DNA of 50,907 bases, from positions 1 to 50,907 of IMG/VR virus record IMGVR_UViG_3300032222_000236; one strand, written 5' to 3'. Under the pieces are notes generated by a model, which saw only the letters and a program-made list of their open reading frames with translations, was not told where the DNA came from and did no database searches. Positions 10,841 through 49,315 of this stretch are shown piece by piece; position 1 is the first letter of the stretch, and each line of letters starts with the position of its first letter. A program made the position numbers and the translations under genes. The stretch comes from a virus.

Positions 10841-11026
10841 ATGATAAAGAAATCAGAAAGATATGCTATGTTACAACTCCCAAAAGAGATTCATACTGCA
10901 TTAAAAGACTATTGCGATGAGAGAGGTTATAAAATGAGTAGGTTCGTATCTAACCTAATTAAGGATAAAATACGAACCACTAATAAATCTAGGAATGTTC
11001 TTCCTGTGGATAAAGTTAGAATTTAA
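10841..11026 (+). CDS. Ribbon-helix-helix DNA-binding protein
   Basis: 61 residues with the pattern of a CopG/Arc-type ribbon-helix-helix domain: a short beta strand (RYAMLQLP), helix A (KEIHTALKDYCDERG) and helix B (KMSRFVSNLIKDKI), then a basic tail. Such proteins bind DNA as dimers and usually act as repressors. It is one of only two convincing plus-strand genes. It lies divergent from the tail fibre and overlaps the end of the Mre11-Rad50 gene by 11 bases. Its target sites are unknown; the palindrome at 10810-10821 upstream of its own start is a candidate. Confidence 0.8.
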   Translation: MIKKSERYAMLQLPKEIHTALKDYCDERGYKMSRFVSNLIKDKIRTTNKSRNVLPVDKVRI

Positions 11027-14000
11027 CCGAACTGAATCCGTTATCTTTTTTAATCTCCAATAAACTATCTACCACATCTCTCATTGAATCAATGTGTGAG
11101 ATTACTATTACAAACTCAAATTGAGTTTTAAGATATGCAAATGCCATAAATAGGGATTGTAAGTTCTCACTATCTAATGTACCAAATCCTTCATCTATTA
11201 CTAAGAAGTTTGGACGAGGTAGGTTACATATATTGATTAAAGCAACTCTGATTGCCAACCCACTAACAAACTTCTCCATACCACTGCACATCTCCAACGG
11301 CCACTTTCTATTATCTCCGTAATTGATATAAGCATTAACATTCTTACCATCCATCTGTAGGTTCATACTGAAATCTACAATCTGACCTAATATGTTATTA
11401 ATCTCTCCTTCAATTGCAGGAAGTGTTCTACTGATTAATTCATAGGATATACCATCTCTTTTTACCGCATCCAAATAGTAATCGTATAATTTATTAGTTT
11501 CTTCTAACTTCTTAATTTGAGCAATCCTACCTTCGATTCCTTCTTTTTCTTGCTTTGCTTTAGAAACTATACTATTGATAGATAATTTTTCATCATCAAC
11601 TTCTTTGATTTGTTTTTTAATACCATTGATAACCTCTTTGGTATCAGTAATATCTTTACGAAGTTGTTTATTCAATTCTATTTGCTCTTTGTTTCTATGA
11701 TACTCTTCAATCTTAGAAGTTGAATCTTTTATACCATCCTCAGAATCTCTTATATCCAATTTAGTTTTAGAAATATACTCTTTGATTCTACTAACTAAAG
11801 TTTTGGAATCATTTACCTCTTTATGTTTAGATTGATATGATTTATATGCTTCTTCGACATCATCCCAACTATCCAAAGTTTGTTGGATACCGGTAGCATC
11901 AACTAATGCCTGTTTAACTATTGCTTCCAATTCAGGTAATGCATTTTTCGCAACCATCGCATCTTTAACAAATGTATTATCACAACAATATTTACAATTT
12001 GGGTCATATTCATGTTTATCCAAATGTTTTATCTTTTCTTCAGCTAAACTTAAATATAATTTTGCATTTGAATATACTTTCTCTGCTTCAATTAGTTTTT
12101 TCTGTTCTTCTTGATAATTTGAATATACAACTTCTATATCAATACCATTATATTTAGATAGATGGGATTGTGATTCGATTAATTCCGATACTATACCTTC
12201 TGCCTGTGTTAATTGTTCTTCCATCTTCACAAGTTTACCATTATTAGTTTCTAATGAACTTGTAAAAGATTCTAATCGTTTTGTTTCAACATCTAAATCA
12301 ATTGAAAGAGTAGTTTGTTGAATTTGAGATTCTAAATTAGATAACTTCCTTTCTACTTCGGTTTTATCTTGCTCAAACTCATCCTTCTTTTCAACTAACT
12401 CATTAAATACCTTTCCGTTAGTTTTAACAATCTCATCTAATTCCGCTAATCTCAAAGAAAAATCATCCTTCTTAAAATTCTTTAATAAGATTGCAGCTTC
12501 TTTATTATCTTCGTTTACAACATCAAATAATTTATCGAATACATTTACACCGATATATTGTGCAAGAATATCTTTTCTTTCCGATTGTGATTTATCAATG
12601 AATAAAGCATTATTACCTTGCAATGAAAGTGAAGTCATTACAAAATCTTCATAAGTACCTAAATACTTTTTGATTACATCATTTGTGTTTCTTCTCTCAT
12701 CGCCATTAAGTGATTCATTGATTCCATCTACTACTCTCCAAAAATTAACATTTACTTTAACCTTTTCAGTTTTAGTAGTATGTGCCTCCCTTTCTATAAA
12801 ATAATCTATACCATCAATCTCAAAATTAAATTTACAACTGAATGTATCTTTTTGATTATTCATAATATGAGTAGCCTTAAATGCTCTACTACACTTATCA
12901 AATATGCAAAATGAAAGTGAATCGAATAGGGATGATTTACCCTGTGTGTTCGGTGCAAATAAACCAATGATTCCCTTTGCTCTATCAAACTCTATTTTGT
13001 TTCCTTCACCATATGAGAACATATTACTGAATTCAAACTTCTTAGGAATCCATAGAATATTATCCGTATCCTCATGTGTAATCTTCGTATTAACGTTATT
13101 ATTAATCTCAATTACCTTATTAAGGGTTTCATCATCTAAAAGAAATTGCCTCTCTAAATACTCCTTAATTAACCCATTCTGAACGTTTACATCTTTAACA
13201 TTACCCGCTAAGTTTCTAGCATTACGATTCTTTGTTTTCATAGAATTCAAAGTATCTTGTCGAGTAACGGTAATCTCAGAAATGTTAAACATCTTTTGTA
13301 ATTCAGTTGATACTAATTTAATATCAGCTGCTTCCGTTTCCTGAAATCTAACTCTTAAGCGTGGTTGTTTAGGAAGTTTAGTTCCAATCTCATCACGAAC
13401 CCATTGTGGTATAACACCATTTGTTACATCAATAGTTAAGTAACCATAATCGTTGTGAATATTAAACTCTTCAAAAGTTTCATTCTTCACATCCCATAAT
13501 AGGTAACCATGATTCTCTAAGTATTCTCCGTGATTTTGTTGAACAACCGAACCCGCATAAACTACAATCGGTTTACCATTTGCCTTATCTCTTTGTTGAA
13601 CGATTTGTCTTTTATGAATATCTCCCATCAATACCATATCAAACCCATCAAACATATCAGGTGTGAAATTGTTAGATGATACTATGTAACCAATATCGGT
13701 TCTCGCAGCATCTACCGGTCCATGAAAGAAACATATTTTAGTTTTACCTTCTACATCTTTACCCAAAGGCCAGTTTGCTTTCTTATCTAAAATTGAATAG
13801 ACTGTAAAAGTTAATTCATCATTGATATGAATTGTGCCTGTATCTCTTAAGTAATATAAATTTGGATTGTTTAGGTTATCACAGATAGGAGTTAATACAT
13901 CCAATCTATCCATATTGTTTAAGTTACAATCGTGGTTTCCTGTGATTACAAATGTAGGGAAACGATTTGCACATTCATTGAAGAACCAAGTGATTTCTCT

Positions 14001-14195
14001 AACTAATTCCGGACTCATCTCCGTTTTAGCGTGAGCAATATCACCCGCTAAATAAATAATAGCGTTTTCTTTCTTTTGTGAATCTACATCCACTAAGAAT
14101 TTATTTAGAATCTCTCTATACTCCTTATGACGTTTTAAGTTACGGATGTGTAAATCCGCTAAGTGATAGATGTAATCTACTTTTATGTTAAGCAT
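11016..14195 (-). CDS. Mre11-Rad50 (SbcD-SbcC, T4 gp47-gp46) fusion, recombination nuclease-ATPase
   Basis: One 1059-residue chain joins both subunits of the exonuclease complex. The Mre11 phosphoesterase comes first: DLH (14-16), GDIAH (51-55), GNHD (86-89), HGP (158-160) and GDIHK (191-195) supply the metal ligands. The Rad50 ATPase follows: Walker A GLFAPNTQGKSS (411-422), a coiled coil interrupted near residue 735 by the zinc hook CKYC, a signature-like CSGMEKF near 970, and Walker B with catalytic Glu in FLVIDEGFGTLD near 1001. In T4 and most bacteria these are two proteins encoded by adjacent genes. The complex processes DNA ends for recombination-dependent replication. A strong host-type promoter sits 22 bases upstream. 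Confidence 0.93.
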   Translation of the reverse strand: MLNIKVDYIYHLADLHIRNLKRHKEYREILNKFLVDVDSQKKENAIIYLAGDIAHAKTEMSPELVREITWFFNECANRFPTFVITGNHDCNLNNMDRLDVLTPICDNLNNPNLYYLRDTGTIHINDELTFTVYSILDKKANWPLGKDVEGKTKICFFHGPVDAARTDIGYIVSSNNFTPDMFDGFDMVLMGDIHKRQIVQQRDKANGKPIVVYAGSVVQQNHGEYLENHGYLLWDVKNETFEEFNIHNDYGYLTIDVTNGVIPQWVRDEIGTKLPKQPRLRVRFQETEAADIKLVSTELQKMFNISEITVTRQDTLNSMKTKNRNARNLAGNVKDVNVQNGLIKEYLERQFLLDDETLNKVIEINNNVNTKITHEDTDNILWIPKKFEFSNMFSYGEGNKIEFDRAKGIIGLFAPNTQGKSSLFDSLSFCIFDKCSRAFKATHIMNNQKDTFSCKFNFEIDGIDYFIEREAHTTKTEKVKVNVNFWRVVDGINESLNGDERRNTNDVIKKYLGTYEDFVMTSLSLQGNNALFIDKSQSERKDILAQYIGVNVFDKLFDVVNEDNKEAAILLKNFKKDDFSLRLAELDEIVKTNGKVFNELVEKKDEFEQDKTEVERKLSNLESQIQQTTLSIDLDVETKRLESFTSSLETNNGKLVKMEEQLTQAEGIVSELIESQSHLSKYNGIDIEVVYSNYQEEQKKLIEAEKVYSNAKLYLSLAEEKIKHLDKHEYDPNCKYCCDNTFVKDAMVAKNALPELEAIVKQALVDATGIQQTLDSWDDVEEAYKSYQSKHKEVNDSKTLVSRIKEYISKTKLDIRDSEDGIKDSTSKIEEYHRNKEQIELNKQLRKDITDTKEVINGIKKQIKEVDDEKLSINSIVSKAKQEKEGIEGRIAQIKKLEETNKLYDYYLDAVKRDGISYELISRTLPAIEGEINNILGQIVDFSMNLQMDGKNVNAYINYGDNRKWPLEMCSGMEKFVSGLAIRVALINICNLPRPNFLVIDEGFGTLDSENLQSLFMAFAYLKTQFEFVIVISHIDSMRDVVDSLLEIKKDNGFSSVKF

Positions 14196-14217: not shown

Positions 14218-14248
14218 CAAAGATACGAAAAAAAGGTGAGAATACCAA
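14218..14248 (-). promoter_or_regulatory. Bacteroidota-type promoter for the Mre11-Rad50 gene
   Basis: TATCTTTG at 14225-14218 and TTG at 14248-14246 on the minus strand, again 20 bases apart. The box ends 22 bases before the ATG at 14195. It lies just past the end of the cupin gene. Confidence 0.7.
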
Positions 14249-14249
14249 A

Positions 14250-15690: not shown

Positions 15691-16619
15691 TATGTAAACG
15701 ATAGTTTTAATCTTATTAAATCCTCAAATGATGAGGTTGTGTTTTGTTGTATCTGTTTTGTTACTTCTACAAATCCCATTTCCGAAGGGTCTTTCCCACT
15801 TAATCTAACTAACTTACAATCGATTCCATTTGCAGTTAAGTATTCATAATGCCTAATAGCATCTCCCATTGCATCATCATCTAATACAATATTGATTGGT
15901 GGTTTCTCCGTTAGAATTTTATCCGTTAATTCTTTGGAAAGTGTTTTACCTAATATTGGAGAAGCATTTCGTTTGATTGCAATTGCATCAAATGCTCCTT
16001 CACAGAGTGTTACCGGCATTTTCCAATTTATCATTGATTCAAATCCAATTATATTCTTTGATACAGGTGGATTCTTATATTTTAATTTCTCATCTGGATA
16101 AATACTTCTAGCTAAAAAGAAATTAAGTTGATGAAGTGAATTGTAAGATGGTACAATGATTCTTCCTTTATACATACCACCATCACAGTATCCTATTTTA
16201 TGTTTAAGAATATCCTTATCACTTATGCCTCTTTTCTTTAAATAATTATAAGCAACTCTAAATTCAATAATATGCTGATTATCTAATAGTGTTTTATATT
16301 CAGATGGTAAATGTATTTCTACAAAATCCTCATCCTCTGCTTTAGCTATATATCCCGATTCATCGTAGATTTTCATTACCCTTTGGATAACATCATAATC
16401 TACACTTAACTTCTTCAATAGAGAATGAACCTTCTTACCTCTAGCATTACACACCCAACATCTCCACTTTTGTGATTCTAAGTTGACCTGTAATTTAGGT
16501 TTATGATGGGAACAAAATGGGCAATAGTATTGGATTTCGGAACTACCTAAGTTTCTTCCTTCTCCCAAAACTACATTCATTTGACCTAATACATATTGTT
16601 TATCTATTTCCGAAATCAT
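15690..16619 (-). CDS. DNA primase (T4 gp61-like)
   Basis: Makes RNA primers for lagging-strand synthesis. An N-terminal zinc ribbon is formed by CPFC (33-36) and CWVC (54-57). A Toprim catalytic domain follows, with LCEGAFDAI (Glu207) and the metal-binding IVLDDDA (247-249). GRIIVPSYN at 152-160 matches the start of DnaG-type catalytic cores. At 309 residues it is similar in size to T4 gp61. No helicase gene lies in the window. Its start overlaps the end of the upstream SGNH gene by 20 bases. Confidence 0.88.
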   Translation of the reverse strand: MISEIDKQYVLGQMNVVLGEGRNLGSSEIQYYCPFCSHHKPKLQVNLESQKWRCWVCNARGKKVHSLLKKLSVDYDVIQRVMKIYDESGYIAKAEDEDFVEIHLPSEYKTLLDNQHIIEFRVAYNYLKKRGISDKDILKHKIGYCDGGMYKGRIIVPSYNSLHQLNFFLARSIYPDEKLKYKNPPVSKNIIGFESMINWKMPVTLCEGAFDAIAIKRNASPILGKTLSKELTDKILTEKPPINIVLDDDAMGDAIRHYEYLTANGIDCKLVRLSGKDPSEMGFVEVTKQIQQNTTSSFEDLIRLKLSFT

Positions 16620-17346
16620 ATCTTTCTTTTAACCAATTAATGTACCACCTATTTCCGTTATCATTAAAGTGTATATCCATTTTAGATACAAAGTATTCGG
16701 GATGAGTTTCTGTTATATAAGATTGAATACTATTAAACTCACCAAACATAATGTGATTATTATTTATTTCACGAAGAAGAACTTTATCCTTTTTATATGA
16801 ACTAAGCCCATTGAAGCATAAATCAAAATCACTTGAGTAGAAAAAGTATTCTAAATTAATACCGATTGATTTTGCTAGATTCTTTAATAGATTTACTTCC
16901 AACAATAAATCGTTTAGTATATTTAATTCATTTCGAGTTATAAAAAATCCCAAATAAGGCATGAATACCATTTTGACTAAATCTGAATTCATTGAACTCA
17001 TATTCGGATATAAACTATAATATCTATTGTGGAAAACATCTCTATCGGCATATTCTATGGTTTTATTATCATAGGAATACACACTTCTCAATACACCTTT
17101 TTCTAACGGCATATTGGATTCATTAACACATATTCTACTACATACAGTTAATTGAACTAATATGGTACTACCACTTACATCAATATTCTGTTCTATAATT
17201 TTATTAAGTTTTAACTTAACTAATTTAAGAATATGGTCATTTGATAATGAATGGTGTGTATTGAATTCTACATCATTACGATGGGATTCTTTAATATCTC
17301 CGGTAAATAAAGAGAATGAGTCTCCGAAAAGATACAATTTTTTCAT
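16600..17346 (-). CDS. SGNH/GDSL-type hydrolase, first of four
   Basis: 248 residues starting MKKLYLFGDSFSLF: the GDS block with the nucleophile Ser is at the N-terminus. The C-terminal catalytic pair is in KMDIHFNDNGNRWY (D-x-H). The middle is divergent. An upstream in-frame TTG at 17352 is rejected as start because it is part of the promoter box at 17357-17350; the ATG at 17346 is used. The box ends only 3 bases before that ATG, so the mRNA is probably leaderless. Family members are esterases or acyl-transferring enzymes acting on glycans or lipids; the substrate here is unknown. First gene of the primase-thyA-cupin operon. Confidence 0.72.
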   Translation of the reverse strand: MKKLYLFGDSFSLFTGDIKESHRNDVEFNTHHSLSNDHILKLVKLKLNKIIEQNIDVSGSTILVQLTVCSRICVNESNMPLEKGVLRSVYSYDNKTIEYADRDVFHNRYYSLYPNMSSMNSDLVKMVFMPYLGFFITRNELNILNDLLLEVNLLKNLAKSIGINLEYFFYSSDFDLCFNGLSSYKKDKVLLREINNNHIMFGEFNSIQSYITETHPEYFVSKMDIHFNDNGNRWYINWLKERYDFGNR

Positions 17347-17349
17347 ACC

Positions 17350-17380
17350 CAAATATACGAAATTATTTCGATATTTCCAA
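17350..17380 (-). promoter_or_regulatory. Bacteroidota-type promoter, likely giving a leaderless transcript
   Basis: TATATTTG at 17357-17350, TTG at 17380-17378, 20-base gap. Only three bases (GGT) separate the box from the ATG at 17346. With the usual spacing for this promoter class, transcription would begin at or next to the A of the start codon. Confidence 0.65.
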
Positions 17381-18187
17381 ATACTTTTTGTAGAGTTGGT
17401 TTGCTAACCAATGGTGGGAATCTAAGCAAGGGTGGTCATCGTTTACTCCGATATTCTCCCTTAATGTCCATTTGTTCGTTCGATTCATAACATCCCAACT
17501 TTCGTATGGGGTATCATTGTATATAATCGGTAAATTATATGGGTCATCTTTAACAACCTCATATATCAAATGTTTGGAATATTCTTCTACTGAACCGATT
17601 AGATAGATACATTTACACCCATATTTATCCTCTAAGATACTAAATCTTTTTTTAACTTCCAAGAGCATTATTTGGAATATTTTGGTAAGGATTGGGTTCA
17701 TTTTTTCAACATCCTCTTTGGTTTGGATGTGAACCGGATTTAATCTAGCAATTGCATATTTTATATCTTCATAAAATTCAGGCCCAAAAATACCACCTGT
17801 GCTTCTATATTTACTTTGGGTATGCCCAATATCTCTTACAACGTTAGTGAATTGGAAAACTAATAATTTTGGATGTATTGCCTTTTCCGATTTCAAATAA
17901 TCTAACCATATATCAAGAGTTTCGATTGCACCATAGTTACTACCCCCATTTCCAAAATTAGATACCGTTTGAGTATTTAATAATTTTCCTAATACACCAC
18001 TATAATTGTTGTTGGTTCTAAATTCATAGAATTCCGAAAATGTTTCACTTACAGTCTGACAGGGTTCGTATGAAGTTTTTCCTTTGAACATATCAAAGGT
18101 GTTTGTATATCTATTTTTCCATAGATGAAATTGCAATCCTTCGCCATATGTGAAAGAATCACCAATTGTAATTAATAAATCACTCAT
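17363..18187 (-). CDS. SGNH/GDSL-type hydrolase, second of four
   Basis: 274 residues. Block I is TIGDSFTYGEGL (Ser about residue 11), block II NFGNGGSNYGAIET (oxyanion Gly/Asn), block III-like LVFQFTNVVRD, and the catalytic D-x-x-H is in CLDSHHWLANQLY near the C-terminus. All four expected blocks are present, so it is probably active. It overlaps the upstream GIY-YIG gene by 8 bases and ends just inside the promoter region of the next SGNH gene, forming a tandem pair. Likely an esterase on a surface or virion glycan; inference only. Confidence 0.78.
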   Translation of the reverse strand: MSDLLITIGDSFTYGEGLQFHLWKNRYTNTFDMFKGKTSYEPCQTVSETFSEFYEFRTNNNYSGVLGKLLNTQTVSNFGNGGSNYGAIETLDIWLDYLKSEKAIHPKLLVFQFTNVVRDIGHTQSKYRSTGGIFGPEFYEDIKYAIARLNPVHIQTKEDVEKMNPILTKIFQIMLLEVKKRFSILEDKYGCKCIYLIGSVEEYSKHLIYEVVKDDPYNLPIIYNDTPYESWDVMNRTNKWTLRENIGVNDDHPCLDSHHWLANQLYKKYLEISK

Positions 18188-18921: not shown

Positions 18922-20475
18922 TTAAGTATCAAAACGAACCACAATGTTAACCGGTAAATCTGGAGTAGATTTAGGTTTCGCGGGTATTTTTGCAACTGCA
19001 ACTAAATTCATTTCATCATCATATAAACCAACTGTAGTAATGTATGGTGCCAGGAACGAACCCGTTGGGTCTAAAGAAGAACTAAACTCATAATCATCAA
19101 ACCCAACTGCACCTGATAAAGTTTTAGAAGAGGTTATCATTTGCCCCAATACTCTACTTCCAGATGTAAATGTGTGTTCTGATTTAATTCGGAAATCTAA
19201 ATCAAAGAAAGAACCACTATCACCTAATGCCGGTGGCTTAACTTCGATGTATTTGTTAACATAGGCTGCACCACTATAAAATGTGGTAGCCGATGGATTG
19301 GTTGATATATTAAATTCATTAGGTTTAACTTCTAAAAATACTTCATTTTCAAATATAGTTTTAGTAGATTGAAAATTCATCTGGTATCCTTCACTCCCAA
19401 AGTTAAAGTTTCTGCCTTCAACAAAAACTCCACTACTCGTACCAAATCCAGTTTGCCAAGTTATAGTTGCAATACCATTCGCATAAAATATATTACCAAT
19501 TGATTTTTTAGGATTCTGAATAGGGTATGGTAAATCCCATTCTTCATCAGCAAACATAGTTCCTGACAAAACATCTATCTCATCTATATCTCTAGTATCA
19601 ATTTCATATGGTCTATCGTTTTGATATTGGTATGTTAACACTTCATCGTTATTAACTATATCATCACCAAAATCACCTTCATATAAATTAAAGTTATAAT
19701 TTAAACCCTCGGTAGTTCTAATAATCATACTACCGGTATCATTACTCCCACTAAAATCTAATTCAACTACACCTAAGAAATCTCTATCATTATCAATTAA
19801 ATTTGATTTACCATCATCAACTATGGTTACGAATTCACCTTTTTTACCTTTTGAATTTCTTTTTCTACCATAATCAACTACTCTAAATGAACCAGGTTTA
19901 ATCCCCTCTCCTACGAATTTTTGAGGTATATTCCATACAAAAAATCTATTATCTAAATTTCTCTCTTGCACCGAGCCTAAACTATTCATACTACCGTACA
20001 TTTTCGTAATATCGGTAAATTTGCCAGTTAGTATTTGGCCTCTATCACTTACTATAAATGCGTTATTATCTAAATACGACTGAAATTCATCTATATAAGA
20101 ATCTGTAGTAGAATCATAGTAATACTCATATGTAGTTGTACTATTTGTATAATCATTGATATTTTGAACTACATAATACCTTTGTTTTTTAGCTTTATGT
20201 TTTTCAAAGTTCCAATTTGTTACCACCGCAACCAATTTAGGTGCGTTTCCATAAAACATTGCTCTTATACTCCTATCCGCTGAATATTCACTATATTCGT
20301 ATGGAAAATCATAGTTACTACCTGAGCCATATAATTTAAATCCTTCATAATCTTCAAACGCACCTTCTCTATGTTGAATAGCGTGGAGATTAATGGTATC
20401 TTCATTAAAAGACCAGTTTTTGTAGACCTTAAACGGTCTTATCGTAATATCAGATTTAGAAATTGACTTAAACAT
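18922..20475 (-). CDS. Virion structural protein with shared C-terminal domain
   Basis: 517 residues, beta-rich, no enzymatic motif. It begins MFKSISKSDITIRPFKVYKNW. The last about 140 residues share a pattern with the C-terminus of the next upstream gene (20562-21818): EFNxSxNP, then YITxVGLxxD, LxAVAK and a final VxIxVxxD. Related C-terminal blocks occur, from memory, in T4-like phage tail and baseplate proteins. Its position in the tail block supports a tail or fibre-connector role. A terminator lies just before its start, so it probably has its own promoter; a degenerate ATATTTAT lies 6-13 bases upstream. Confidence 0.7.
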   Translation of the reverse strand: MFKSISKSDITIRPFKVYKNWSFNEDTINLHAIQHREGAFEDYEGFKLYGSGSNYDFPYEYSEYSADRSIRAMFYGNAPKLVAVVTNWNFEKHKAKKQRYYVVQNINDYTNSTTTYEYYYDSTTDSYIDEFQSYLDNNAFIVSDRGQILTGKFTDITKMYGSMNSLGSVQERNLDNRFFVWNIPQKFVGEGIKPGSFRVVDYGRKRNSKGKKGEFVTIVDDGKSNLIDNDRDFLGVVELDFSGSNDTGSMIIRTTEGLNYNFNLYEGDFGDDIVNNDEVLTYQYQNDRPYEIDTRDIDEIDVLSGTMFADEEWDLPYPIQNPKKSIGNIFYANGIATITWQTGFGTSSGVFVEGRNFNFGSEGYQMNFQSTKTIFENEVFLEVKPNEFNISTNPSATTFYSGAAYVNKYIEVKPPALGDSGSFFDLDFRIKSEHTFTSGSRVLGQMITSSKTLSGAVGFDDYEFSSSLDPTGSFLAPYITTVGLYDDEMNLVAVAKIPAKPKSTPDLPVNIVVRFDT

Positions 20476-41002: not shown

Positions 41003-41554
41003 TTACATCAAAATATATCCTTTATCAATGTATTTGGATATATGTTTATATTTAATTTGTTCAATGTTACCACTAGGGTCTTTCGCCATAACCAATTGGT
41101 TTCTTTCATATTGAACCTGCTTTCTAATAGGTTGATTTATATTTTTATCCGCAATTGTTATACCATCTAATAGGTCAATCATTTGTTGTGCAAAAATACA
41201 CTCATCCAAACCTTCCCTATCATTTTCCATATCACCTTTGAATACCACTAATCCTAAATTATCAGTTTGAACTTCAATTGAAAAAGCTCTAACTACTATT
41301 CTACTTTTTCCATTTGTATCAAACTCCGACATTTCAGTAGATTGAAATGCATCATTTGAATACTTTGTTATGTATGGATTAATTAAAAGGAGTGGAGTTT
41401 CTGTGTTAAGATAAAATGCCCTGAATGGTAAATTAACACTTCTGGTACAAACTGCTGAAAGTTTTGTGCTGCTAGCGTAACGCTTTAATGTTTTCAATAT
41501 CAACTCCTCATCTGATTTTGTGAAAGGAGTAGATTCAATTTTAGTTAATTTCAT
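41003..41554 (-). CDS. Degenerate peptide deformylase homologue (probable pseudoenzyme)
   Basis: 183 residues with the outline of peptide deformylase: LLLINPYITKYS matches the xINPxI strand, and QQMIDLLDGITI aligns with the deformylase QHEIDHLNGVLF signature. The two metal-binding His and the catalytic Glu of that motif are Gln, Leu and Met here. The GxGLAAxQ loop is replaced by TKLSAVCT, and no EGCLS loop is seen. The fold seems kept but metal binding lost. It may serve as a binding or structural protein. First gene after the promoter at 41575-41605, upstream of the late sigma operon. Confidence 0.65.
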   Translation of the reverse strand: MKLTKIESTPFTKSDEELILKTLKRYASSTKLSAVCTRSVNLPFRAFYLNTETPLLLINPYITKYSNDAFQSTEMSEFDTNGKSRIVVRAFSIEVQTDNLGLVVFKGDMENDREGLDECIFAQQMIDLLDGITIADKNINQPIRKQVQYERNQLVMAKDPSGNIEQIKYKHISKYIDKGYILM

Positions 41555-41574: not shown

Positions 41575-41605
41575 CAAAGATAATAAAACTTTTTGAAATT
41601 TACAA
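41575..41605 (-). promoter_or_regulatory. Bacteroidota-type promoter for the sigma-factor operon
   Basis: TATCTTTG at 41582-41575 and TTG at 41605-41603, 20 bases apart, ending 20 bases before the ATG at 41554. It would start an operon of deformylase-like, two small genes, gp55-like sigma factor and carbamoyltransferase. Confidence 0.7.
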
Positions 41606-41610
41606 ATAAA

Positions 41611-43060: not shown

Positions 43061-43091
43061 CAAAGATAGGTATAATTTTTCAATTAACCAA
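43061..43091 (-). promoter_or_regulatory. Promoter-like TATCTTTG directly before a terminator
   Basis: TATCTTTG at 43068-43061 and TTG at 43091-43089 with the usual 20-base gap. Any transcript would begin inside or next to the hairpin at 43035-43059. Function unclear. Confidence 0.4.
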
Positions 43092-46387: not shown

Positions 46388-46927
46388 TTATTCTAATACA
46401 ATTTTTTTCATTACAAATAACTTAGAGCTATAATTACTCGCTTTAATAACTAAGGTATCACCCTTCATCCTATATATCGGTGCAATCATAGTGTTTATTT
46501 CTCCATTGTCTCCACTATAAGAGGATGAATTGATTGTTGGTACTAATTCATCTTTGGAAGCAATTAGAGGTGGCAGCTGAACGATTTGGTACTGACCTGT
46601 GAAGTAATTGATATACGTCTTTGTAATAGTAGCAACGGTATCATTTCTTCTTAGTAACCAATACAAATTACTCTCCCATTCTACTTTTTCTGCTGGATAA
46701 GGTTCTCTTCCATTTACCAATATTCTACCATTTACTCTATGTACGGTTTGGTTTTTAGTTTTATCCAATTTAAGATGATAATATCCATTGACATCTTTAG
46801 GAAGTGAACCTATTCCATTTTGATTCATTACTCCATTTATTTCTAATGTGTAAGTTTTGTTAGGAATTGGTATATCTACATCCTTCGTACATCCGAATAA
46901 AAATAATATCGGTATTAAACGTTTCAT
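46388..46927 (-). CDS. Phage-encoded lipoprotein
   Basis: 179 residues. A short signal peptide MKRLIPILFLFGC ends in a lipobox (LFGC), so the mature protein would begin at Cys13 and be lipid-anchored. The next residues TKDVD resemble, loosely, the K-(D/E) surface-export signal of Bacteroidota lipoproteins. The rest is beta-rich with no catalytic motif. It overlaps the HAD gene (TAATG). Phage lipoproteins sometimes block superinfection; that is an inference. Confidence 0.75.
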   Translation of the reverse strand: MKRLIPILFLFGCTKDVDIPIPNKTYTLEINGVMNQNGIGSLPKDVNGYYHLKLDKTKNQTVHRVNGRILVNGREPYPAEKVEWESNLYWLLRRNDTVATITKTYINYFTGQYQIVQLPPLIASKDELVPTINSSSYSGDNGEINTMIAPIYRMKGDTLVIKASNYSSKLFVMKKIVLE

Positions 46928-47849: not shown

Positions 47850-48623
47850 TTACATAAGGAACTCTATTTCCCTACTTACAAAATCATAGTTGAATTTGAT
47901 AGGGTCTTGAATTGCTTCATATCTTAGATTACAAGTTGATGCGTTGAATGTGTATATATCTCCCCATTCATCTTTGTAAGGTATAGTTCCCCACCCATAT
48001 CCTTCGTGTATGTGACCGGCAAAGTGTAAATGAGGTTTCACTTCATGTAATCTGTGATATAAATCTGAACACCCTACATTTTCGTTTGTGTTAGATGTTC
48101 TATCATTATATCCATAGATAGGAGAGTGAGTAATTACTATATCGGTATCTAATGGTATTTGATTCCAAATCTGAGCCGCATCATATCCTCTATCCACATT
48201 AAATCCCCAGCCATATCCGAATGATGGTGAATACGGTGAACCCCATATATTCAATCCTTCGATTTTAACACCACTATCCTCTAAATAATAAACTCCATTT
48301 GGAAGATTACCCAACATATCCTTTAACCATTGAGGCTTACGTTCTGCACATTCAGTATCATATTCAGTTCTACCTTCAAAATAAGCCAACTTATCTCTCA
48401 ATAATCTTTCTCTATCGAAAGACATATCATGATTACCAGCTATGAATATTTTATGAGTATAATCTTGCTTACCAAACCATTTAATAAAATCAGCTACCTC
48501 ATACTTTCTACCCAACGATGTAATATCTCCACTATGGATTAGGATATGCCCACCTGGTAACTTACCATTAAGTTGATTGTGTTTGTTATGGGTATCTGAT
48601 ATTGCAGTAATATTATATTTCAT
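47850..48623 (-). CDS. Calcineurin-like metallophosphoesterase
   Basis: 257 residues from ATG 48623. Metal-ligand motifs: ISDTHNKHN (Asp10, His12), HSGDITSLG, IAGNHDMSF, ITHSPIYG and FAGHIHEGY, in the correct order. Phosphate-ester substrate unknown (nucleotide, cyclic or protein). The in-frame TTG at 48629 is rejected as a start: it lies in the promoter box TATATTTG, which ends three bases before the ATG, implying a leaderless mRNA. Followed by a strong terminator, so a one-gene unit. Confidence 0.85.
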   Translation of the reverse strand: MKYNITAISDTHNKHNQLNGKLPGGHILIHSGDITSLGRKYEVADFIKWFGKQDYTHKIFIAGNHDMSFDRERLLRDKLAYFEGRTEYDTECAERKPQWLKDMLGNLPNGVYYLEDSGVKIEGLNIWGSPYSPSFGYGWGFNVDRGYDAAQIWNQIPLDTDIVITHSPIYGYNDRTSNTNENVGCSDLYHRLHEVKPHLHFAGHIHEGYGWGTIPYKDEWGDIYTFNASTCNLRYEAIQDPIKFNYDFVSREIEFLM

Positions 48624-48626
48624 ACT

Positions 48627-48657
48627 CAAATATACGAAAAAAATCTGATAAAAACAA
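48627..48657 (-). promoter_or_regulatory. Bacteroidota-type promoter, likely leaderless
   Basis: TATATTTG at 48634-48627, TTG at 48657-48655, 20 bases apart, and only AGT between box and the ATG at 48623. Same layout as 17350-17380. Confidence 0.65.
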
Positions 48658-48658
48658 A

Positions 48659-49315
48659 TTATTTATTATACTGAATGTTAAACAATAATGCAAACCTATT
48701 TACATCTTCCGTTACTTTACTTACTTCATGAAACGGGTCGGAATCTTCGGTGAAATTAAGAAACAATATATCGGCAAAGTTTGGAACTATCTCTTCATCA
48801 TCAACTACAAACAATCCACCATATTCTTTTTTATATTCCTTATTTAGATATATCAGCACATTTGCAGGTTTTTGTTGTTGAAATTTTTCATACCCATCTG
48901 GTTTACCATCTCTATGACCTCCTAATAAACATCCTTTTGTGTAAAGTGTCAATAGTGGGTTTCCTGAAAATAACGTATGTTTCTTTTTACATTGCTCTCC
49001 AAATAATTCAAAAGATTTATCAATTATCCAATTATGTGTATTGGGGTAATCTTGCCAATCTAACTCTGCACCATTTAAACATAATTGACCTATCCTAGAA
49101 TCTCCTTTATCCTCATACCAATTGACAATCATATCCATAAAAGATTTAGCTTTGACATGGGATTCGTGTACCTCCATCATACCAAAATGTGCAGACCCTC
49201 TGTGAAGTGTTTTGGTATATCTCTCTAAATCAGTTGCTATGCTATATATCTTATCTAATTCCGCTTTTAAATGATTTATATCATATAGATTCTCTTTGTG
49301 GTACGCACCTTCCAT
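48659..49315 (-). CDS. 2-oxoglutarate-Fe(II) dioxygenase-like protein
   Basis: 218 residues. LGGHRDGKPDGYEKF gives H-x-D, followed by the strand NVLIYLNKEYKKEYGGLFVV, and FHEVSKVTEDVNRFALLF supplies the distal His and 2OG-binding Arg: the H-x-D...H...R set of the prolyl-hydroxylase-like group. It may hydroxylate a protein, sugar or nucleobase. It lies divergent from 49372-50334. A weak ATATCTATAATT promoter-like site sits 19 bases upstream. Confidence 0.78.
   Translation of the reverse strand: MEGAYHKENLYDINHLKAELDKIYSIATDLERYTKTLHRGSAHFGMMEVHESHVKAKSFMDMIVNWYEDKGDSRIGQLCLNGAELDWQDYPNTHNWIIDKSFELFGEQCKKKHTLFSGNPLLTLYTKGCLLGGHRDGKPDGYEKFQQQKPANVLIYLNKEYKKEYGGLFVVDDEEIVPNFADILFLNFTEDSDPFHEVSKVTEDVNRFALLFNIQYNK

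Follow-up and report, generated by a model that had tools for sequence, protein, structure and literature searches.

Two gene starts directly behind promoter boxes

The window (i.e. the whole stretch of DNA analysed) is a virus record of 50,907 bases in which nearly all genes lie on the minus strand. A gene at 47850-48623 (minus strand) encodes a calcineurin-like metallophosphoesterase of 257 amino acids (Pfam Metallophos, E = 3e-12; PHROG 1649) and was proposed to be leaderless. Alignments with its relatives begin at residue 1 or at residues 2-5, indicating that the ATG at 48623-48621 is a credible start. A -7 box, TATATTTG (48627-48634, minus strand), stands 3 nt (AGT) ahead of this ATG and a -33 box, TTTG (48655-48658, minus strand), lies 20 nt 5' of the -7 box. 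The preceding gene, coding for a 2OG-Fe(II) oxygenase (48659-49315, minus strand), ends where the promoter begins and the promoter occupies the whole of the 35-nt gap. Other products encoded in the window include T4-type baseplate wedge subunits, a primase, a thymidylate synthase and an SbcC-like protein. Among phage records, the best matches to the metallophosphoesterase were the Flavobacterium phages immuto (~36% identity), which, together with the promoter type, suggests that the virus host is probably a member of Bacteroidota.

A second gene with a matching layout (16600-17346, minus strand; ATG at 17346-17344) encodes a protein of 248 amino acids with no confident family, the top Pfam match having an E-value of only 0.023. 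Its -7 box, again TATATTTG (17350-17357, minus strand), is 3 nt (GGT) ahead of the ATG and its -33 box TTTG (17378-17381, minus strand) is separated from the -7 box by N20 and falls within the 3' end of the gene at 17363-18187. The sequences TATATTTG-AGT-ATG (48634-48621) and TATATTTG-GGT-ATG (17357-17344), both on the minus strand, are exactly as given in a preliminary description of this DNA, which had read them as leaderless-type starts and had missed that each box is preceded by a TTTG at a distance of exactly 20 nt; with this element, both starts are predicted to be promoter-driven. The -7 box of the Bacteroidota sigma-ABfr promoter is TAnnTTTG (TAHHTTTG), with which TATATTTG agrees at both sites, and its -33 TTTG at ~20 nt is present at exactly N20 in both. 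Judged by these elements, both sites are complete Bacteroidota housekeeping promoters (sigma-ABfr type/sigma-A) that would be read by the host sigma factor.

For both genes, conserved protein sequence begins at the ATG or no more than 4 residues from it, which leaves no start codon further downstream that could create a leader. The TTG within each -7 box (48629-48627 and 17352-17350) is in frame with the gene as an upstream start codon; the ORF list placed the gene start there in both cases, a point of relevance to annotation. If the promoter is right, this TTG cannot be in the transcript.

Conservation was examined in relatives of each gene. Both boxes of the metallophosphoesterase promoter were invariant across five close aligned relatives, in which the bases from the -7 box to the ATG varied and the gap was 3 or 4 nt long. 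A wider survey covered 56 relatives whose upstream region could be read (L035, a C-terminal match only, was omitted). TAnnTTTG was found 3-5 nt before the start in 14/56 loci, down to ~39% protein identity, at 8 nt in two and at 16-37 nt in nine; one locus had no assigned start and 30/56 had no TAnnTTTG box within 40 nt of the start. A TTG was present 19-20 nt upstream of the box in 11 of the 14 loci with a 3-5 nt gap, at 22 nt in two and not at all in one. For the second gene, the box, GGT and ATG were kept in 9/9 relatives read with that start (L058, L059, L060, L063, L064 and L141-L144), several of which are near-identical; L059 and L060 have one changed box base (TACATTTG) and also differ in their flanks.

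The nearest long relatives, virus records of 164 and 94 kb, each have three such genes, including both window genes. The third, TATATTTG-TAT-ATG (L583:2104-2463 and L581:1604-1963), encodes 119 amino acids, for which Pfam gave nothing better than a sub-threshold hit (E = 0.065) to a family of DNA-mimic proteins. The 164 kb record has two extra matches that were excluded from this count: L582 is in a different frame from the called gene, and the one at 156891 appeared accidental on the basis of its sequence. The preliminary description had named a lack of further examples in the full genome as grounds for refutation; in these larger relatives, further examples do occur, and the arrangement thus recurs there, in the relatives of each gene and in the viral distances described below.

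Within the window, TTTG-N20-TAnnTTTG was found at four sites, all on the coding strand and each directly before a gene. Leadered promoters used for comparison, TTTG-N20-TATCTTTG, are located at 41575-41606 (minus strand), where 20 nt lie between the box and the ATG of gene 41003-41554, and at 14218-14249 (minus strand), with 22 nt to the ATG of gene 11016-14195. Clear leadered promoters had box-to-ATG distances of 20, 22 and 28 nt, and boxes at 43068, 46028 and 45268 were about 70, 90 and 133 nt from the ATG, bearing out for the clear promoters the earlier statement that the others leave 20 or more bases. The leadered promoters at 46028-46021 and 3444-3437 (minus strand) share a -33 region, AAAGTTGGAAAAGTG, which contrasts with the ATTTG-type -33 of other window promoters; AAAGTTGG also occurs at 43068. 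Promoters with this -33 region are possibly a second viral subtype. One further, weak candidate is TAGGTTTG (46937-46927, minus strand): 2 nt separate it from the ATG of gene 46388-46927, and its upstream TTG is at a spacing of 21 nt. It is probably accidental and has a G inside the box, a base described as virtually absent from the -7 box in F. johnsoniae (PMC6847099).

Box-to-start distances in viruses and hosts

The IMG/VR collection was scanned for TTTG-N20-TATATTTG-N0-30-ATG, and for the same pattern with TATCTTTG, yielding at least 234 loci in which starts were assigned with a simple ORF caller. Among the matches listed, 34 starts were at 3-5 nt from the box, 9 at 6-13 nt and 85 at 14-30 nt. 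Fourteen wrong spacers, when pooled, gave 7, 0 and 14 starts, respectively, among the matches listed. Viral box-to-start distances are therefore bimodal among these matches, with a near-empty stretch at 6-13 nt separating two real modes. The short-distance starts were split as 4/34 at 3 nt, 24/34 at 4 nt and 6/34 at 5 nt (among the matches listed). Hence the identical spacing emphasized in the preliminary description holds for the two window genes, with 3 nt at each, and fails as a hallmark, since metallophosphoesterase orthologues use gaps of 3, 4 or 5 nt and the viral mode is 4 nt. Transcription is reported to start 4 or 5 nt after the -7 element in F. johnsoniae (PMC6847099), and the box is placed at -12 to -5 in F. 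psychrophilum, where 5.5% of mRNAs are leaderless (PMC9723704). On these published positions, the viral 3-5 nt mode would correspond to leaderless mRNA, the start coinciding with the ATG for the 4-nt mode.

Host sequences were sampled as at least 117 genome_contigs loci matching the TATATTTG pattern, including some non-Bacteroidota contigs. Starts among the matches listed were at 3-5 nt in three cases, at 6-13 nt in none and at 14-30 nt in 31, such that the share at 3-5 nt was 3/34 in hosts vs 34/128 in viruses (Fisher p = 0.037, among the matches listed). A further sample of 149 genomes, from the class to which one Flavobacterium belongs, had 24 matches at 3-5 nt (21 genomes), 21 at 8-10 nt (19 genomes) and 49 at 20-22 nt (38 genomes). 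Called gene starts accounted for 11/24, 3/21 and 16/30, respectively, of the loci examined. A comparison of any ATG at 3-5 vs 20-22 nt, in place of called gene starts, showed a weaker difference, with ratios of 49:54 for viruses (among the matches listed) and 24:49 for hosts (p = 0.063). Hosts too have a 3-5 nt class, consistent with the published 3.7-5.5%, and viruses are likely, though not proven, to be enriched in leaderless-type starts relative to hosts.

Leaderless-type use varies by virus. A 107 kb record (IMGVR_UViG_3300042451_001197; L580, L049) matched TTTG-N19/21-TAnnTTTG-N2/5-ATG 23 times, with an overlap between two of the matches at a single site; many of the matches read TATCTTTG-TATT-ATG. 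Twenty kb of this record held six starts at 4 nt with both boxes, one more at 4 nt without a -33 TTG, one at 9 nt and six at 19-25 nt. No 3-5 nt starts were detected in 150 of the 160 kb of Flavobacterium phage immuto, the nearest isolate with the metallophosphoesterase, or in the first 50 kb (half of the genome) of crAss001. It is conceivable, and only tentatively suggested, that viruses of Bacteroidota use leaderless initiation as a major strategy for gene starts, at a level well above that of their hosts and, in some, for about half of the promoter-proximal genes. If so, this could give viral mRNAs an advantage on ribosomes that can do without a leader, and promoters could be packed into tiny gaps.

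Predicted leaderless initiation and its alternatives

Both window genes are predicted to be leaderless: the TTTG-N20-TATATTTG placement probably sets the start of transcription from these sigma-ABfr promoters at, or within one nucleotide of, the A of the ATG. Host RNA polymerase would then make an mRNA with a 5'-terminal AUG, which would be translated without a leader. Such leader-independent initiation is plausible because Shine-Dalgarno sequences are generally missing from Bacteroidota mRNAs. The layout would also let a promoter fit where closely spaced genes leave gaps of only 35 and 16 nt. Leaderless viral starts had shorter intergenic gaps than leadered ones (medians of 47.5 and 62 nt; p = 0.047), a difference that vanished after subtraction of the box-to-start gap length (p = 0.79). 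Compaction was thus discarded as the reason, since, apart from the missing leader, leaderless promoters have no less room than leadered ones. Nor was a pyrimidine preceding the ATG accepted as proof of an initiator, because leadered viral starts often have T at -1 as well (0.62 vs 0.79). No clear YR initiator was apparent in leadered viral promoters, in which there was only a weak pattern with no position standing out.

The 3-nt gap is the weakest step for both window genes. The box does place the start on the start codon, at a distance one short of the 4-5 nt published for flavobacteria (PMC6847099, PMC9723704). With a 3-nt gap, the published rule would have transcription begin at the T or the G of the ATG, and an intact AUG would require an upstream slip of 1-2 nt. 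The 30/56 metallophosphoesterase relatives that lack a nearby box, and the lack of one in immuto, also count against the leaderless reading. An alternative reading is that the promoters fire 4-5 nt past the box, making transcripts with an incomplete AUG, and that translation occurs only from upstream read-through mRNA. The upstream genes are co-directional and abutting at both sites, and read-through mRNA from them may indeed supply a leader. This alternative is nevertheless unlikely: orthologues switch among 3, 4 and 5 nt without other change, the 3-nt start is kept in all of the second-gene relatives read, and the viral 3-5 nt mode and the gap at 6-13 nt (among the matches listed) would be unexpected if placement were neutral for translation.

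More unlikely still is the view in the preliminary description that leaderless starts make up a separate class for early expression; such a class might also have a dedicated regulator. Three of 33 pooled leaderless genes matched primase families (among the matches listed), and a clamp loader and a helicase loader were among 25 of 56 leaderless-gene families listed. Leadered genes, however, include the same kinds (primase, clamp loader and DnaB; 25 of 78 families listed, 50/90 proteins). Leaderless (33) and leadered (89) viral promoters also had one extended consensus among the matches listed, with G after TTTG in 19/33 and 56/89, respectively, which contradicts a separate promoter class. This G was uncommon in host loci (3/14 and 10/56). 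TTTGG was found at -33 in 58-63% of pooled viral loci (L145-L264 and L436-L549, among the matches listed) vs 18-21% of host loci, where the host sets mix loci picked at particular distances and can be read for composition and not for proportions. The common consensus argues that leaderlessness is a matter of where the usual viral promoter is placed rather than of a separate regulon.

Chance expectations were derived from shuffles of the window. The arrangement TATATTTG-N3-ATG was observed three times vs 0.16 expected, with three or more in 0/100 shuffles. The third match (19357) looks accidental, being inside ORF 18922-20475 with no TTG 17-23 nt upstream. TTTG-N20-TATATTTG-N3-ATG was observed twice vs 0.003 expected, with two or more in 0/300 shuffles; this excess of ~600-fold comes from two sites only. 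Loosening the boxes and allowing gaps of 3-5 nt gave two observed vs 0.08 expected, a number reached in 3/300 shuffles. The significance of both sites derives from the TTTG standing exactly 20 nt upstream of each box, and the two full sites are not due to chance. Least probable of all is the reading that the boxes are chance A+T-rich matches before ordinary internal operon genes, with which the frequency of TATATTTG alone in the window (8 found vs 8.27 expected, i.e. no enrichment) would agree, but not the excess of the two-box arrangement, the conservation of boxes across diverged flanks or the specificity for the correct spacer.

Comparison with known systems

An arrangement in which the box abuts the start is uncommon but known. 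In Bacteroidota, leaderless mRNAs are reported to be rare and Shine-Dalgarno leaders are absent too. If viruses use leaderless starts several times oftener, they would provide a natural and tractable set for studying how these ribosomes choose a start codon in the absence of a leader. A search of literature listings under open licence found no report on leaderless genes of Bacteroidota phages.

In phage lambda, the gene cI has a leaderless mRNA that starts with the AUG, as is predicted for the window genes. It differs from them in having another host promoter type and a host mostly using Shine-Dalgarno leaders. Leaderless initiation was first found in this phage, according to a survey of start signals that also placed many Bacteroidetes genes under 'atypical' signals (PMC3160421). 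The TA-led leaderless genes of Actinobacteria and Deinococcus-Thermus described there are marked, as here, by a -10-type box some 10 nt ahead of the start codon, but belong to other phyla, in which they constitute >20% of genes (PMC3160421).

The closest likeness is to the leaderless sigma-A mRNAs already published for Bacteroidota, namely those of F. psychrophilum, F. johnsoniae and Bacteroides thetaiotaomicron, which have the same TAnnTTTG box and box-to-start geometry (PMC9723704, PMC6847099 and PMC7366714, respectively). The shares given in these reports are minorities: leaderless mRNAs make up 5.5%, leaders of at most 10 nt 13% (the complement of the stated 87%) and leaders below 10 nt ~3.7%. 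Those cases concern host genes with mapped starts, whereas the present ones concern viral genes with predicted starts and an apparently higher proportion of the leaderless type.
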